Source: Acidimicrobiia bacterium (GTDB lineage: Bacteria > Actinomycetota > Acidimicrobiia > IMCC26256). Taken from it: a stretch of DNA of 14,384 nucleotides. Position numbers and translations under genes: made by a program. Shown here in pieces: positions 1,777-13,872 of the stretch (positions are counted from its first letter, which is position 1; each line of letters begins with the position of its first letter). Under the pieces are notes generated by a model. That model was not told the DNA's origin. It made no database searches and saw only the letters and a program-made list of their open reading frames with translations. The stretch spans positions 1 through 14,384 of the forward strand of contig JALRDW010000100.1 in assembly GCA_023262065.1 (NCBI GenBank). Direction: 5' to 3'.

Positions 1777-1779
1777 GTC
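1750..1779. terminator. inverted repeat spanning two convergent stop codons
   Basis: Arms 1750-1757 (GACTCGGG) and 1772-1779 (CCTGAGTC) pair over 8 positions, one of them a G-U wobble, around a 14-base loop. The right arm contains the DUF429 stop codon (1774-1776) and overlaps the stop of the leftward ATP-grasp gene (1778-1780). There is no U-tract. A bidirectional terminator is an inference from position. Confidence 0.4.
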
Positions 1780-2815
1780 AGTAGCGGCGGGGCGGTGTCC
1801 AGTCCGCGCCGAGCAGCGTGTCGTACTCGGTCGGCGTGAAGTTCGCGCGTCCCCCGGCCGGGTAGTTCGTGAGTTCGCCGAACACGATGCGGTCGCTGGC
1901 GTCGTAGAGGTCGACCCGCACGAGGTCCGTGCCGCGGCCGAGTGCCTCGGCGATCCGGATCATCTCGTCGAGGTTGCTCGGCAGTTCCACCGGTTCCGGG
2001 GCGGGCTCGCACACGTACCGTACCGGGATGACCTCACCGTCGCGATCGAAGCAGGTGATGTAGGTCGTGGGCTCGCGGACCTCGTTGACGTGGAACCACG
2101 AGACGCGGCCGTGCATCACGTGGAACTTGACGTCACGCGCCGAGTGGCCGTCGCCCTCGAGGAACTCCTCGACCATGAGCCGGTGCGGGACGTGCTTGTA
2201 GGCCCATTCGGTCGACCCGAGCGCCCGCCAGTAGTCGTGGCGGAGCCACAGGTCGCACATGGCGTCGAACCGGTGACGGTCGAGGTGCTCGGGTCGGACC
2301 CACGCGATCCTGCCGGTCCAGCCCCGGTCCCGCGGGAGGTCGGGCAGCCGGAGGTCCGGGTCGGCGAGATCGTGGACGACGATGACCGCCCCACTGCCGT
2401 GCGTGGGCTTGACCACGAACCGCGACGGGAGGGCAGCGAGGTCGAGGTCCCGTGGATCCTCGGCGACGGCGAGGAGCTCGGAGAGGTGCTGCGGCCCGAC
2501 GGTGCGCGCTACGACGTCGCGCACCGCGAGCTTGTCGGCGTAGGTCGTGAGGATCGGTCTGCGGTCCCATGCGAGCTTGTACTCGACCTTCTCGTTGAAG
2601 GTGCGTGGCGCATGGCGGGCGTACTTCAGCCGGTGGCGCGCGGTCCACAGCGCCGCCGCCACCCGCGAGGTCCGGATCCGGGCTCGCGCCGGTCGGCTCG
2701 TGTCGATGACGCGTCGGGGAGTGACGCGACGGGTCGCCCGCGCCGCACGGCTCATCGGGGTCACCTCGGACCCCTCGTCACCGGCGTGGCTCGCGTGCGG
2801 CCCGACGATGGTCAT
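1778..2815 (-). CDS. TupA-like ATP-grasp protein (paralogue A, downstream copy)
   Basis: A 345-residue member of the ATPgrasp_TupA family, named for Bacillus halodurans TupA of teichuronopeptide synthesis; probably an ATP-dependent amide ligase acting on cell-surface polymer precursors. Family signature seen: PRTFNEKVEYKLAWDR, then YADKLAVR, nucleotide-binding RFVVKPTHGSGAV (K136), EEFLEGDG, and the metal-binding C-terminal DLVRVDLYDASDRIVFGELTNYPAGG. ATG at 2815 overlaps the stop of the upstream paralogue as ATGA, implying translational coupling. The N-terminus (MTIVGPHA) resembles that of the neighbour, supporting both starts. It is closely similar to the neighbouring copy along its whole length, so this is a tandem duplication. 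Substrate is unknown; no glycosyltransferase or export gene of a polymer locus is nearby in the window. Confidence 0.9.
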   Translation of the reverse strand: MTIVGPHASHAGDEGSEVTPMSRAARATRRVTPRRVIDTSRPARARIRTSRVAAALWTARHRLKYARHAPRTFNEKVEYKLAWDRRPILTTYADKLAVRDVVARTVGPQHLSELLAVAEDPRDLDLAALPSRFVVKPTHGSGAVIVVHDLADPDLRLPDLPRDRGWTGRIAWVRPEHLDRHRFDAMCDLWLRHDYWRALGSTEWAYKHVPHRLMVEEFLEGDGHSARDVKFHVMHGRVSWFHVNEVREPTTYITCFDRDGEVIPVRYVCEPAPEPVELPSNLDEMIRIAEALGRGTDLVRVDLYDASDRIVFGELTNYPAGGRANFTPTEYDTLLGADWTPPRRY

Positions 2816-3864
2816 GCGGTGCGGCTCCGGTACCTCCGTGCGGGCCGCCACGGCTCGCCCATGATCGTGTCGTACTCGGGCGGGTCGAAGGAGGCCCGTC
2901 CGGCGCTCGGGTAGTTGGTCAACTCCCCGAAGATGATCCGCCCATCGGCGTCGTAGAGGTCGACCCGTACGAGGTCGGTGTCGGCGCCGAGCGCCTCGGC
3001 GATGCCGATCATCTCGTCGAGGTTCGCCGGCAGTGCGGGGGTCTCGGCCGGGCGGGGGTTCGAGTACTCGAACGGCAGCGGGGTGCCGTCCCGGTCGAAG
3101 TGTGCGGTGGTCTCGCCGTCGCCTCGGTGCTGGTTCACCCGGAACCAGGTGACCCGCCCGTGGACCACCATGAACTTGAAGTCCCGTGCGATGGACCCGT
3201 CCTCCTCGAGGAACTCCTCGACGACGAGCCGCCGCGGGATGCCCCGGTAGGCCCACTCGGTCGATCCGAGGGCCCGCCAGTAGTCGTGGCGGAGCCAGTG
3301 GTCGCACATGGCGTCGAACCGGTGACGGTCGAGGTGCTCGGGCCGGACCCATGCGGTCGCCCCGGTCCAGCCGCGGTCGCGGGGGAGCACGGGGAGTCGG
3401 TGGGCGGGGTCGGCGAGGTCGTGCACGATGATCACCGCCCCGCTCGCGTGGGAGGGCTTGACCACGTAGCGGGTCGGCAGGCCGGTGAGGTCGAGGTCAC
3501 GGGGGTCGTCGACGACCGCGTACTGGGTCGCCAGCAGGTGGGGTCCGACGACGCGGGCCACGTGGTCGCGGGCGGCGACCTTGTCGGCGAACACGCGCAG
3601 CATCGGGTTGCGGTCCCACGCCATCTTGTACACGACCTTCTCGTTGAAGGTCCGCGGGGTCCGCACCGCCCACTTCGCCCGGGTGCGTGCCGTCCACCAT
3701 GCGGCGGCCGGAGTCGACGATCGCACCGCGGCCCGCACCGGACGGGATGCCGCGATCAGCCGCTCCGGGGTCATCCGACGCACGAGGCGTGCGGTCGGAC
3801 CCATCGGCGTCTCGGCGTCCCGGGGGACGTGGGTCGGCGGCTCGTGCCGCGGGCCGACGATCAT
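2812..3864 (-). CDS. TupA-like ATP-grasp protein (paralogue B, upstream copy)
   Basis: A 350-residue ATPgrasp_TupA family protein, first gene of a two-gene leftward operon. Motifs in order: PRTFNEKVVYKMAWDR, FADKVAARDHV, RYVVKPSHASGAVIIV with the presumed ATP-binding lysine K136 (the same residue number as in copy A), EEFLEEDG, DFKFMVVHGRV, and DLVRVDLYDADGRIIFGELTNYPSAG with E314. ATG at 3864 has no clear ribosome site, but the N-terminal segment (MIVGPRHE) aligns with that of copy A. Its stop overlaps the start of copy A by four bases. The divergent neighbour is a peptidoglycan synthase, which fits a cell-envelope role but does not prove one. Predicted reaction: ATP-dependent ligation through an acylphosphate, known for the ATP-grasp superfamily; the actual substrates cannot be read from sequence. 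Confidence 0.9.
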   Translation of the reverse strand: MIVGPRHEPPTHVPRDAETPMGPTARLVRRMTPERLIAASRPVRAAVRSSTPAAAWWTARTRAKWAVRTPRTFNEKVVYKMAWDRNPMLRVFADKVAARDHVARVVGPHLLATQYAVVDDPRDLDLTGLPTRYVVKPSHASGAVIIVHDLADPAHRLPVLPRDRGWTGATAWVRPEHLDRHRFDAMCDHWLRHDYWRALGSTEWAYRGIPRRLVVEEFLEEDGSIARDFKFMVVHGRVTWFRVNQHRGDGETTAHFDRDGTPLPFEYSNPRPAETPALPANLDEMIGIAEALGADTDLVRVDLYDADGRIIFGELTNYPSAGRASFDPPEYDTIMGEPWRPARRYRSRTA

Positions 3865-10780: not shown

Positions 10781-12763
10781 ATGTCGGCGTACCGGCCCGC
10801 GCTCGATGGTCTCCGGGCGGTCGCGGTGGGCGCCGTCGTCGCCTACCACCTCGACGGACGAGGACTGCGTGGCGGCTTCCTCGGGGTCGACACGTTCTTC
10901 GTGCTGAGCGGATTCCTCATCACGACCCTGCTGCTCCTCGAGCTCGAGCGGTCCCGACGCATCGCACTCGTCGCGTTCTGGGGTCGTCGACTCCGTCGCC
11001 TCCTCCCCGCGCTGCTCGGCGTGGTCGCTGCGGTCGCCGTCCACGCGTGGTTCGTCGCGCCGCCCACGGAGCGGGCGGCCGTCCGCGGCGATGCGCTCGC
11101 CGGACTCGCCTACGTCGCCAACTGGCGGTTCGTGGCCTCGGGGCAGTCCTACTTCGACCTGTTCAGCGCTCCGTCGCCGCTGCGCCACCTCTGGTCGCTG
11201 GCCATCGAGGAGCAGTTCTACCTGGTGTGGCCCCTCGTCGTGGTCGCGGTCGCCGCGTTCGGCGGGGGCATGCGCCGCACCCGGCTGGCGGTGGGTGTGA
11301 TCGCCGGGGTCGGCGCCGCGGCGTCGATCTGGGCGATGGCCCGGCTCTACGACGGTGCCGATCCGTCACGCGCGTACTACGGCACCGACGCCCGGGTGCA
11401 CACGATCCTCATCGGCTGTGTCCTGGCGGTCGTCGTCGTGCACTGGAAGCCACGTGGGCGGGTGCGCGCCGTCCTCGTCCAGGGGGCCGGGGTGCTCGCG
11501 CTCATCGGTGTCCTCGTCGCGTACGCGACCGTCTCCGATCGGGGGACCTGGCTCTACCACGGCGGCTCGGTCGCGTTCGCGGTCGCCGTCGCCGCGGTCG
11601 TGCTCGCCGCCGTGCAGGACACCGGGCCGATCGTTCGGGTCCTGGGCGTGGCCCCGGCGCGGGCGCTCGGACGCATCTCGTACGGCGTGTACCTCTGGCA
11701 CTGGCCGGTCATCGTCTGGCTGACGCCCGGCACCACCGACCTCGACGGGGCCGCGCTGGCCGGCCTCCGCCTCGCGGTCACCCTCGTCGCCGCCATCACC
11801 TCCTACCACCTGCTCGAGATGCCGGTCCGGGCCGGTGCGCTCCGCGGGTGGCGCGTCGCCGTGGCGACGCCGGCGGTCGTCGGCGCGGTCGTGGGAGCGA
11901 TCGTGCTCGGTACGTCGGGCGCGACCGTGCGACCGAACTACCTCGGCGGCGGGGGACCGTTGTCGTTCGCGATGCCGTGTCCCGAGCCCTCGGCGCCGGA
12001 GCGTGCGGCGGCCACGGCGGCGGCGTCGTCCGTCCCGGTCCGCCACGGAGGGGCGCCGCAGCGGGTGCTCGTGCTCGGGGACTCGGTGGCCTGCAGCCTG
12101 CGTGTCGGTCTCGAGGCGACCCGGCCGACGTCGGTGCGGCTCGTCGACGGCAGCGTGATCGGGTGCGGCATCGTCGCCGGGCGGGTCCGGAGCGAGTCGA
12201 TGCGGGTGCCGCGCCACCAGCGCCGGTGCGACCGGTACGCCGCAGCATCGCTGCGATCCGGGGTCCGGGCCCTCGGGGGCGAACCGGACGCGGTGGTGCT
12301 GCTCAGCACGTGGGAACGGTTCGACCTCGTCGTCGGTGGCCGGACCCTCCGAGCCGGGACGAAGGAATGGGAGTCCGAACTGACGCAGCGGCTCGACCGC
12401 CGGGTCGACTCCTTCGGGCAGCTCGGCGCCCGCGTGTTCCTGGCGCTGCCCGCGCCATCGACGGCGGGGAACTTCGGCGGGCGGATCGTGCGCAGCGACC
12501 ACGCGCTCGATCAGGCGATGCTCCGTCTCGGTGATTTCCTGACCCGGTACGCCCAGCGACGATCCGGCACGGTGTCGACGCTCGACCTCTCGGCACTCGT
12601 CTGTCCGGGCGGGCCGCCGTGTCGGCCGGTCGTGGACGGGCGACGTCTCCGACCGGCGGACGGCACGCACTTCGACCCCGCGGGTGCGGTCCGCGTCGCG
12701 TCCTGGGTCTGGGAACGCGTCGGGCGTGGCATCGAGCCGGTGGGTGAGCGCGCCGGCCGCTGA
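10781..12763 (+). CDS. acyltransferase 3 / SGNH hydrolase fusion (OafA-like)
   Basis: A 660-residue O-acyltransferase expected to move acyl groups across the membrane onto a surface glycan or lipid. The N-terminal acyltransferase-3 domain (about residues 1-370, some ten helices) opens with YRPALDGLRAVAVGAVVAYH, catalytic H23, then GGFLGVDTFFVLSGFLIT and the RRLRRLLPAL arginine motif; ISYGVYLWHWPV comes later. The C-terminal extracytoplasmic SGNH-like domain has the GDS block (LVLGDSVACSL, S435) and the distal DGTH pair (D627, H630). ATG at 10781 has GGAG 9 bases upstream; GTG at 10751 with a G-rich tract 7 bases ahead is an alternative adding ten residues. Acceptor is unknown. It converges on csrA with 21 bases between. 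Confidence 0.93.
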   Translation: MSAYRPALDGLRAVAVGAVVAYHLDGRGLRGGFLGVDTFFVLSGFLITTLLLLELERSRRIALVAFWGRRLRRLLPALLGVVAAVAVHAWFVAPPTERAAVRGDALAGLAYVANWRFVASGQSYFDLFSAPSPLRHLWSLAIEEQFYLVWPLVVVAVAAFGGGMRRTRLAVGVIAGVGAAASIWAMARLYDGADPSRAYYGTDARVHTILIGCVLAVVVVHWKPRGRVRAVLVQGAGVLALIGVLVAYATVSDRGTWLYHGGSVAFAVAVAAVVLAAVQDTGPIVRVLGVAPARALGRISYGVYLWHWPVIVWLTPGTTDLDGAALAGLRLAVTLVAAITSYHLLEMPVRAGALRGWRVAVATPAVVGAVVGAIVLGTSGATVRPNYLGGGGPLSFAMPCPEPSAPERAAATAAASSVPVRHGGAPQRVLVLGDSVACSLRVGLEATRPTSVRLVDGSVIGCGIVAGRVRSESMRVPRHQRRCDRYAAASLRSGVRALGGEPDAVVLLSTWERFDLVVGGRTLRAGTKEWESELTQRLDRRVDSFGQLGARVFLALPAPSTAGNFGGRIVRSDHALDQAMLRLGDFLTRYAQRRSGTVSTLDLSALVCPGGPPCRPVVDGRRLRPADGTHFDPAGAVRVASWVWERVGRGIEPVGERAGR

Positions 12764-13028: not shown

Positions 13029-13056
13029 CTGTCGGCATCCAACGGCCGGGACTTGA
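13029..13056 (-). promoter_or_regulatory. sigma-28 (FliA/WhiG)-like promoter for csrA
   Basis: On the minus strand TCAAGTCC (13056-13049), 12 bases, then GCCGACAG (13036-13029). The sigma-28 consensus is TAAA-N15/16-GCCGATAA. Here TCAA-N16-GCCGACAG matches 3 of 4 and 6 of 8 positions. The predicted start near 13021 gives a leader of about 40 bases containing the csrA ribosome site. Confidence 0.6.
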
Positions 13057-13067
13057 GCGCGGTTCCC

Positions 13068-13081
13068 GGGCCCTTCGGCCC
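13068..13081. repeat. short hairpin between the 51-codon ORF and csrA
   Basis: GGGCC and GGCCC form a 5-pair stem around CTTC. It lies 14 bases downstream of the 51-codon ORF stop and just upstream of the csrA promoter, so it could separate the two transcripts. The stem is short. Confidence 0.3.
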
Positions 13082-13095
13082 AGGGGCGGGGGATC

Positions 13096-13251
13096 TCAGG
13101 CGGCGCGGCGGTGCGGCTCGGGGTCGGCGCACTCGTCCGAGGGGGTCGGCGGCCCGGTGGGTGCCGGCGACGCCGCGAGTTCCTGCCACGAGGCGATCGC
13201 ACGGCACGCGATGCGTGCGGCGAGGTCGAGGATGCCGGTCGTCTGGTCCAT
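13096..13251 (-). CDS. 51-residue protein, unknown function, sigma-28-like promoter
   Basis: A short protein: an N-terminal helix-forming half (MDQTTGILDLAARIACRAIA, then SWQELAA) and a Pro-rich, acidic, then basic tail. No family recognised. ATG at 13251 is preceded by GGAGGGGGC, but that stretch overlaps and follows the -10 box of a sigma-28-like promoter ending 7 bases before the ATG, so the message may be leaderless. It is upstream of csrA in the same direction, 113 bases away, with a second promoter between. Coding evidence: sensible composition, in-register start with both promoter and ribosome-site candidates, and an immediate stop. The longer open frame upstream in this reading frame runs antisense through the divergent gene and is rejected. 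It could be a small flagellum-associated protein, but that rests only on the promoter. Confidence 0.55.
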   Translation of the reverse strand: MDQTTGILDLAARIACRAIASWQELAASPAPTGPPTPSDECADPEPHRRAA

Positions 13252-13258
13252 GCCCCCT

Positions 13259-13286
13259 CCATCGGCGTTCGGAGGGTCCGACCTGA
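13259..13286 (-). promoter_or_regulatory. sigma-28-like promoter for the 51-codon ORF
   Basis: Minus strand TCAGGTCG (13286-13279), 12 bases, GCCGATGG (13266-13259). It shares CTCARGTC-N12/13-GCCGAY and identical spacing with the csrA promoter. The core GCCGAT is an exact match to the sigma-28 -10 core. The -10 box ends 7 bases before the ATG. Confidence 0.6.
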
Positions 13287-13512: not shown

Positions 13513-13872
13513 ATGCGGAGTGCGAAGCGACAGTCCAGGAACGCAGTGCGGGGGACGCGGGACGACGGTGAGCCCTCGGATATCGGGGCGGCGTCGGAGC
13601 GACCGCTGCACCCGTCCATGCCGGCCTTCGCGGCGGCGACGATCGATGCGGCATCCATCGCCGCGATGGTCGAGGTGATGCACGAGCGAGCGCAGGCCGC
13701 AACGCCGGTCGACCTGCTCGAGGTCCAGCTCATCACGGCGGCCGAGCAGCTGCGGGTGGCGAGGGATCGTCTGGTCCGCTCCCGGCGTCGGGTCGCCGAG
13801 CTCGAGCGGGCGGTCGGACAACTCGATGCCTTCCTGCAGGTGGTGCGAAGCCGGAGTGCGATCTCGGCCTGA
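13513..13872 (+). CDS. orphan coiled-coil protein, unknown function
   Basis: A 119-residue protein that I do not recognise. The N-terminal 45 residues are basic, polar and probably disordered; residues about 50-115 are helical (AATIDAASIAAMVEVMHERAQ and LLEVQLITAAEQLRVARDRL, then a heptad-rich VAELERAVGQLDAFLQVV), so a coiled coil or helical hairpin is likely. No membrane segment, cysteine or signal peptide. ATG at 13513 is chosen because a strong GGGGGGAG ribosome site lies 5 bases upstream. It is divergent from the 51-codon ORF and csrA, and 26 bases before the next gene, which has its own -10 element. Being next to sigma-28-like promoters makes a motility link conceivable, but no flagellar domain is seen. 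Confidence 0.7.
   Translation: MRSAKRQSRNAVRGTRDDGEPSDIGAASERPLHPSMPAFAAATIDAASIAAMVEVMHERAQAATPVDLLEVQLITAAEQLRVARDRLVRSRRRVAELERAVGQLDAFLQVVRSRSAISA

Follow-up and report, generated by a model that had tools for sequence, protein, structure and literature searches.

Two predicted WhiG-type promoters, one above a divergent csrA paralogue, as probable members of a type IV pilus regulon in an Acidimicrobiia bacterium

Introduction

A stretch of 14,384 nucleotides from an Acidimicrobiia bacterium (contig JALRDW010000100.1; the whole stretch is called the window) carries two closely matched promoter-like elements, one above a gene for a CsrA-domain protein and one above an open reading frame (ORF) of 51 codons. 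The arrangement raises the question of which sigma factor reads the two elements and to which regulon the sequences below them belong. The original prediction, which was made from the window alone, proposed a matched pair of sigma-28-like promoters of a flagellar or, alternatively, a WhiG-like regulon. The reading favoured here, to which we assign a probability of roughly 0.78, is that the elements are two WhiG-dependent promoters of a type IV pilus regulon, one of which would drive a divergent second CsrA, termed CsrA2 in the following.

Two promoter-like elements in the window

The predicted WhiG/sigma-28-type promoter above csrA2 extends from 13057 to 13029 on the minus strand (CTCAAGTC-N13-GCCGACAG), with CTCAAG at 13057-13052 as the -35 and GCCGACAG at 13036-13029 as the -10 region. 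Its predicted counterpart above the 51-codon ORF lies at 13287-13259 on the same strand (CTCAGGTC-N13-GCCGATGG) and consists of the -35 CTCAGG and the -10 GCCGATGG at 13266-13259. The two elements, separated by 230 bases, both lie in sense orientation just above their ORFs. The positions, the strand, the identical spacing and the placement directly upstream of ORFs that had been claimed for the pair were recovered exactly; the N12 counted originally after a 9-mer equals the N13 counted here after an 8-mer.

The -10 core GCCGAT is present in the 51-codon ORF site (GCCGATGG), and the csrA2 site (GCCGACAG) carries GCCGAC, a single core change with C for the consensus T. From the -35 TNAA to GCCGA a distance of 15-16 bases is expected, and both sites have TCAA or TCAG followed after 16 bases by GCCGA. 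The search rule in the available text of PMC8325347 combines the -35 TAAA with the -10 GCCGATAA and allows at most 2 mismatches altogether; by count, the csrA2 site has 3 mismatches and the 51-codon ORF site 4, and the two sites are therefore regarded as a lineage variant of the sigma-28/WhiG class. Within the window, the exact pattern CTCARGTC-N13-GCCGA occurs at these two sites only, and only this exact form is informative there, because up to 3 mismatches give 19 matches as compared to 17.6 expected from shuffles. Neither sigma-70-type promoters nor T-run terminators were found between 12600 and 14384, and a search for Rfam families across the whole window returned none.

The 51-codon ORF occupies positions 13251-13096 of the minus strand and could be a gene or part of a short RNA. 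Its ATG is located close to the -10 region, 8 positions below the last -10 base (the promoter ends 7 bases above the ATG), and transcription predicted to start at 13252 would therefore leave practically no leader; the mRNA would be leaderless if translated. A protein search returned no relative of the peptide except itself, no Pfam or NCBIfam family matched, and the GC content by codon position is 0.71/0.67/0.90; the ORF is a putative protein-coding gene. Folding places an 8-bp hairpin without a T run, a possible terminator, at 13084-13065 on the minus strand, between the stop codon of the ORF and the csrA2 promoter. The promoter at 13287-13259 might accordingly produce a short RNA that is ended by this hairpin, and not an mRNA for 51 amino acids. 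Such a product, which would be compatible with the pilus-regulon reading, is possible at somewhat less than even odds: the peptide has no relatives, the hairpin is present, and a perfect motif site elsewhere in the genome likewise has only a short ORF below it; however, the ATG stands exactly at the position needed by a leaderless mRNA, and the third-position GC content of 0.90 resembles that of the surrounding genes, an argument that is weak in GC-rich DNA. The site elsewhere is found on contig C65 (L015, 2791 onward), where a 42-codon ORF (MSYHEFLAYLYDH...) without a Pfam match follows the motif, possibly another micro-gene or RNA of the regulon.

CsrA2 and its leader

The gene csrA2 (12982-12785, minus strand) encodes a divergent CsrA-domain protein of 65 amino acids with a conserved C-terminal tail, and its ATG lies 46 bases below the end of the promoter. 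CsrA2 reaches 33.4 bits with the Pfam CsrA model (cut-off 27) and 26.4 bits with the NCBIfam csrA equivalog TIGR00202 (cut-off 70.1); since the latter cut-off is not reached, csrA2 is regarded as a divergent CsrA-domain paralogue and not as csrA proper. The gene had originally been called csrA, but it is a divergent second copy and not the canonical one. The canonical csrA of the host is found on contig C108, and its product is 31% identical to CsrA2. Both proteins share the CsrA domain, and R46 of CsrA2 matches Arg44 of E. coli CsrA, which we take to be a residue with a role in that protein. In contrast to canonical CsrA, CsrA2 has a longer tail, falls below the NCBIfam cut-off and has a predicted WhiG-type promoter that is absent from the canonical copies scored.

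Nine relatives of CsrA2 share 75-94% identity with it, and the tail is conserved among them; of 36 pattern matches in genome contigs and 31 in viral contigs, none was confirmed as a csrA2 relative with its neighbouring DNA. Among 58 genomes of the order, only the host's own copy and one 35% match, in IMCC26256, were found. This match is a divergent second CsrA-like gene of IMCC26256 (101972 onward; L094 9973-10125), which lies below pentapeptide-like repeat DNA and has no WhiG-type motif close upstream.

With a start deduced from the -10 region, the predicted 5' leader of csrA2 extends from 13021 to 12983 on the minus strand and contains GGA triplets. Four of them fall within the 46 bases 13022-12977, a number that is reached by 7 of 1248 window segments. 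These triplets are possible CsrA sites; together with the retained R46, they are suggestive of GGA binding by CsrA2. Autoregulation of csrA2, as we infer, would suit the GGA-rich leader.

A WhiG-type sigma factor and its candidate targets

The host genome searched comprises 2,102,117 bases on 300 contigs and is 79% complete. One gene exceeds the FliA/WhiG cut-off (TIGR02479, 271 bits versus 189.6), and its product also passes the NCBIfam WhiG equivalog NF004935 with 354 bits (cut-off 343); all other sigma-70-family matches of the genome fall below the cut-off. The presence of a fliA or whiG gene, which had been named as a check on the prediction, was hence borne out by a single gene that NCBIfam assigns to WhiG. 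At least one FliA/WhiG-family sigma factor above the cut-off is encoded in 56 of the 61 genomes searched. The best solved relatives of the host protein are 6pfj and 6pfv, entries titled only as sigma factor, which we take to be Streptomyces venezuelae WhiG bound to RsiG. The host whiG adjoins a xerC-like gene and is situated above a gene like that of an M23 peptidase and above rpsB, tsf, pyrH and frr (named by eye), an arrangement that presumably resembles the whiG neighbourhood of Streptomyces. The WhiG-like regulon that had been offered as the alternative to a flagellar one is consistent with the model hit and with these solved relatives, and the two window elements are probably read by WhiG.

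It had further been suggested that the motif could be used to find the rest of the regulon, and a search of the genome indeed led to pilus, GGDEF, surface and regulatory genes. On contig C213, a site precedes a type IV pilin gene (pilA), with genes for a prepilin peptidase and PilM downstream; the window sites and the pilA site have the -35, the spacer length and the -10 in common. A site on C103 lies above the gene of a minor pilin that carries an N-methylation motif, and further sites precede genes for a protein of the PAS-GGDEF type (C62), a sugar transferase (C30), a LuxR-type regulator whose receiver match is below the cut-off (C74), a WhiB-like protein (C276), an RPE65-family protein (C25) and a hydrolase-like protein identified by eye (C209). 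The gene below the site on C123, which lies ahead of tatA- and tatC-like genes (by eye), encodes a small protein whose zinc-ribbon matches stay below the cut-off. On C86, a contig that was examined solely for a control match with a different spacing and not for the N13 motif, DUF4388, pilB and pilT each have an upstream site in which CTCAAC or CTACAG is separated by 15 bases from GCCGATG or GCCGATA. The pilB product contains T2SSE and MshEN domains; for the pilT-like protein, a segment of 300 residues was scanned and matches MshEN only, and its identity as pilT comes from reading the whole translation. MshEN is a domain that binds c-di-GMP. The candidate WhiG sites thus stand before pilA, a minor pilin gene, pilB, pilT and a GGDEF gene, and no sporulation genes were seen among the targets. 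The promoter class and the membership of the regulon have good support in the sequence.

The promoters could also be genuine members of the sigma-28/WhiG class while the window pair lies outside the pilus programme or is read by another sigma factor. The window pair and the targets encoding the RPE65-like protein, the sugar transferase and the WhiB-like protein are without evident pilus role, and the sub-cut-off sigma-70-family matches would provide other candidates for a reader. However, the agreement of the window sites with the pilA site in all three parts of the promoter and the position of WhiG as the only host sigma factor above the FliA/WhiG cut-off render this alternative unlikely.

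Occurrence of the motif in the host genome

In the host genome, CTCARGTC-N13-GCCGA has 8 exact matches versus 0 for the reversed pattern. When the spacer is freed to 2-30 bases, 14 matches are obtained, 8 of which have N13 and 6 of which are spread over the other 28 lengths, and the reversed pattern gives 2. The extended form CTCARGTC-N13-GCCGATRG with up to 2 mismatches yields 18 matches versus 1 for the reversed pattern, some of the 18 being intragenic or without clear target. The enrichment of the motif that had been called for was therefore found for the exact form, for the N13 spacing and for the looser form. When the 51-codon and 42-codon ORFs are included, seven of the eight exact sites have an ORF downstream, and one is intragenic (C103:310).

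A weight matrix built from the pilin promoters of 16 relatives ranks the csrA2 site first in the window (18.2) and the 51-codon ORF site second (16.0), followed by a third site with 9.1; this test is not fully independent, because the training rows were picked with the consensus from the host genome. The best scores in 12 shuffled windows range from 8.4 to 16.3, and one of them exceeds the second window site. The matrix scan of the host's own contigs covered 185,095 of the 2,102,117 bases, namely the window and 16 contigs, C209 in part; the selection is biased, since most contigs were chosen for carrying the motif, C175, C108 and C86 being those that were not. Positions on C175, C108 and C53 that have no evident target score 14.9, 15.0 and 16.1, and the pilB and pilT sites reach 15.1 and 15.0. 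As scores of 14.9-16.6 recur without evident targets, these two sites rest on their position and on the comparison with IMCC26256. In 8 of 15 listed sites, an ATG or GTG, not all of which are likely gene starts, is found 4-8 bases below the -10 region, compared to 2.7 expected.

If the window pair were chance copies of a common motif without promoter function, an intragenic copy among the eight exact matches and shuffled windows scoring up to 16.3 would be no surprise, and the pair itself is without cross-species comparison. This explanation is nevertheless very unlikely in view of the 8 matches against 0 reversed, the accumulation of 8 matches at N13, with 6 shared among the 28 other spacings, and the occurrence of two exact copies in sense orientation just above ORFs.

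Conservation in related genomes

Across 60 other genomes, the exact motif occurs 71 times as compared to 4 times for the reversed pattern, with intergenic and intragenic matches pooled. The same-genus genomes G001 and G002 and the complete genome of IMCC26256 (G003) contain 0 exact matches to CTCARGTC-N13-GCCGA, and within the genus conservation is restricted to the looser form of the motif. According to the available text of PMC5962788, IMCC26256 represents the deepest branch of the Acidimicrobiia. When the regions upstream of its pilA, DUF4388, pilB and pilT are compared with those of the orthologous pilus-cluster genes of the host, the promoter cores agree at 49 of 52 positions, and the spacers and flanks at 109 of 344; the core identity is inflated, because sites with the motif in both genomes were chosen. 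The distances from site to gene are similar in host and IMCC26256, with 89 and 88 bases for pilA, 35 and 38 for DUF4388, and 52 and 48 for pilB. The IMCC26256 stretches contain other sites scoring 14-17 that have no evident target.

A larger comparison was based on 61 pilin loci in named genomes, 55 of which could be scored; the 6 loci left out lacked a pilin motif or had too little upstream sequence, and several loci share one genome. Of the scorable loci, 52 bear titles that are actinobacterial or those of unassigned bacteria. At 31 of them, a CTCAAG-N14..16-GCCGATA site with at least 11 of 13 matching positions lies upstream of the pilin gene, and the other 21 upstream regions are without a site at this threshold; it was reached by 1 of the 52 regions after reversal and by 3 of 520 shuffled sequences. 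The three pilin loci titled Acidobacteria score 8, 11 and 12 of 13. An earlier count with a threshold of at least 13 of 16 positions gave 17 of 38 upstream regions versus 1 of 38 reversed; this set, from 27 of 30 loci, overlaps the later one in species and includes two regions from the host genome. As a control, the upstream regions of canonical csrA genes were scored at the 22 of 30 loci that could be located (8 could not), and the best score of 9 of 13 is the same as in reversed sequence, on which ground the same promoter was rejected for canonical csrA at these loci.

Flagellar genes and canonical csrA

No flagellin was detected in the 79% complete host assembly, and FlhA was detected in none of the four genomes of the host genus (72, 79, 79 and 99% complete); across all genomes searched, FlhA was found in 16 of 61. 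The bacterium seems to be without flagella. The sigma-28-like class proposed for the pair is borne out by the motif, its spacing and the sigma factor gene, but of the two regulons considered in the original prediction, the flagellar one fails, because flagellin and FlhA were not found, and the WhiG-like one holds, because the sigma factor passes the WhiG model. A flagellar regulon in which FliA reads these promoters and csrA encodes the flagellar CsrA is hardly tenable. The sigma-28-class motif, the flagella that are common in Acidimicrobiia (PMC10746217, available text) and the linkage of canonical csrA to FliA-family sigma factors in relatives are set against several findings: no flagellin was detected in the 79% complete host assembly and no FlhA in the four genomes of the genus, the host genome has no second FliA-family sigma factor above the cut-off, the targets are pilus genes, and the window csrA is not the canonical copy.

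In 16 of 61 genomes, one contig carries both canonical csrA and, at most 15 kb away, the gene of a second FliA-family sigma factor (in some cases one that scores under the cut-off), for example in G040 (C1:274333 and 279183), G034 (C43) and G021 (C24), and canonical csrA is therefore considered to be flagellum-linked in these relatives.

Comparison with known WhiG and FliA systems

In Streptomyces, WhiG controls the sporulation regulon (PMC8325347). The host protein belongs to the same sigma family, passes the WhiG model and has its best solved relatives there; in contrast to the Streptomyces regulon, its candidate targets are pilus and surface genes, and no sporulation genes are among them. 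For the FliA-family sigma factors of Actinoplanes missouriensis, the consensus is CTCA-N15..17-GCCGAA, the -35 of which resembles that of the host. A. missouriensis forms flagellated zoospores and has three FliA paralogues (PMC13293333, available text), and its FliA-family sigma factors drive pili and flagella according to PMC8325347, also available in part; in contrast, the host is without detected FlhA or flagellin.

The closest counterpart is Rubrobacter radiotolerans. The available text of PMC8325347 describes 12 WhiG-type promoters with mapped starts in this bacterium, 3 of which are in the pilus cluster and 5 before genes for diguanylate cyclases or phosphodiesterases, and a WhiG that is held by RsiG with c-di-GMP; according to the same text, RsiG occurs in 3 of 4 Acidimicrobiales, for which no regulon is given. 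Both the host and R. radiotolerans appear as flagellum-less actinobacteria with a WhiG-type sigma factor and flagellar-class promoters before pilus and GGDEF-type genes. Unlike R. radiotolerans, for which TAAA was used in the search, the host has a CTCAAG-like -35 and includes the genes of a CsrA paralogue and of a WhiB-like protein among its targets, and starts were mapped in R. radiotolerans, whereas the host sites are known from sequence alone.

Proposed role of WhiG and CsrA2

In the proposed mechanism, RNA polymerase with WhiG would read both window sites and the pilus promoters, and the WhiG promoter of this lineage would approximate CTCAAG-N15-GCCGATA. The regulon would be centred on type IV pili (pilA, minor pilin, pilB and pilT) and would further include the GGDEF protein, the sugar transferase, the LuxR-type regulator, the WhiB-like protein and csrA2. 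Free WhiG would lead to the joint transcription of the pilus genes and csrA2. Because of this co-transcription, CsrA2 could adjust the translation of pilus or surface mRNAs, perhaps including its own, thereby acting post-transcriptionally within the pilus programme. By analogy with the known systems, WhiG itself may be controlled by c-di-GMP via RsiG. We infer the firing of the window promoters, its dependence on WhiG and the targets of CsrA2.

A more far-reaching and rather doubtful extension is a circuit of three layers, in which c-di-GMP would act both on WhiG, by way of RsiG, and on the MshEN-containing pilus motors, WhiG would switch on pilus transcription, and CsrA2 would tune pilus or surface mRNAs. 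WhiG would then be the pilus master switch of the Acidimicrobiia and, in this lineage, would additionally drive CsrA2 as a dedicated second copy and a co-regulated micro-gene, the 51-codon transcript being a partner or antagonist of CsrA2. A sigma-28-class regulon whose pilus branch has recruited a CsrA is without precedent in the literature searched, which covered few subscription papers, and for WhiG in Acidimicrobiia and pili the same kind of search found only the Rubrobacter work (PMC8325347) to be directly relevant. The results provide a usable promoter rule for WhiG regulons in a class that is known largely from assembled genomes. They suggest that, outside Rubrobacter as well, the type IV pili of bacteria without flagella may be run by a flagellar-clade sigma factor, and offer a testable case of a CsrA paralogue drawn into a WhiG regulon.

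Further genes in the window and repeated CsrA-like sequences

Divergent to the 51-codon ORF, a gene at 13513-13872 on the plus strand encodes a protein of 119 amino acids with a coiled-coil-like end (LLEVQLxTAAEQLRVARERLVRSRRRVAELERAVGQ). The database contains 13 such proteins including itself, and no family exceeds the cut-off. As a candidate RsiG, whose helix motif is E(X)3S(X)2R(X)3Q(X)3D in the available text of PMC8325347, it was rejected: the PDB search gave no match below 0.8, no family scored above a cut-off, and no exact helix motif was seen by eye.

At 1778-3864 on the minus strand, two adjoining genes have paralogue-like translations, and the one scanned matches the TupA-like ATP-grasp family (114 bits). 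An acyltransferase-SGNH fusion (Pfam Acyl_transf_3 and SGNH), a protein of the type that modifies surface polymers, is encoded at 10784-12763 on the plus strand, convergent with csrA2. In another genome, G014, there are 12 CsrA matches, 11 of which are partial, on 11 contigs (C16, C61, C5, C47, C23, C57, C41, C8, C88, C35 and C50), as if a CsrA-like piece were carried by a repeated element.
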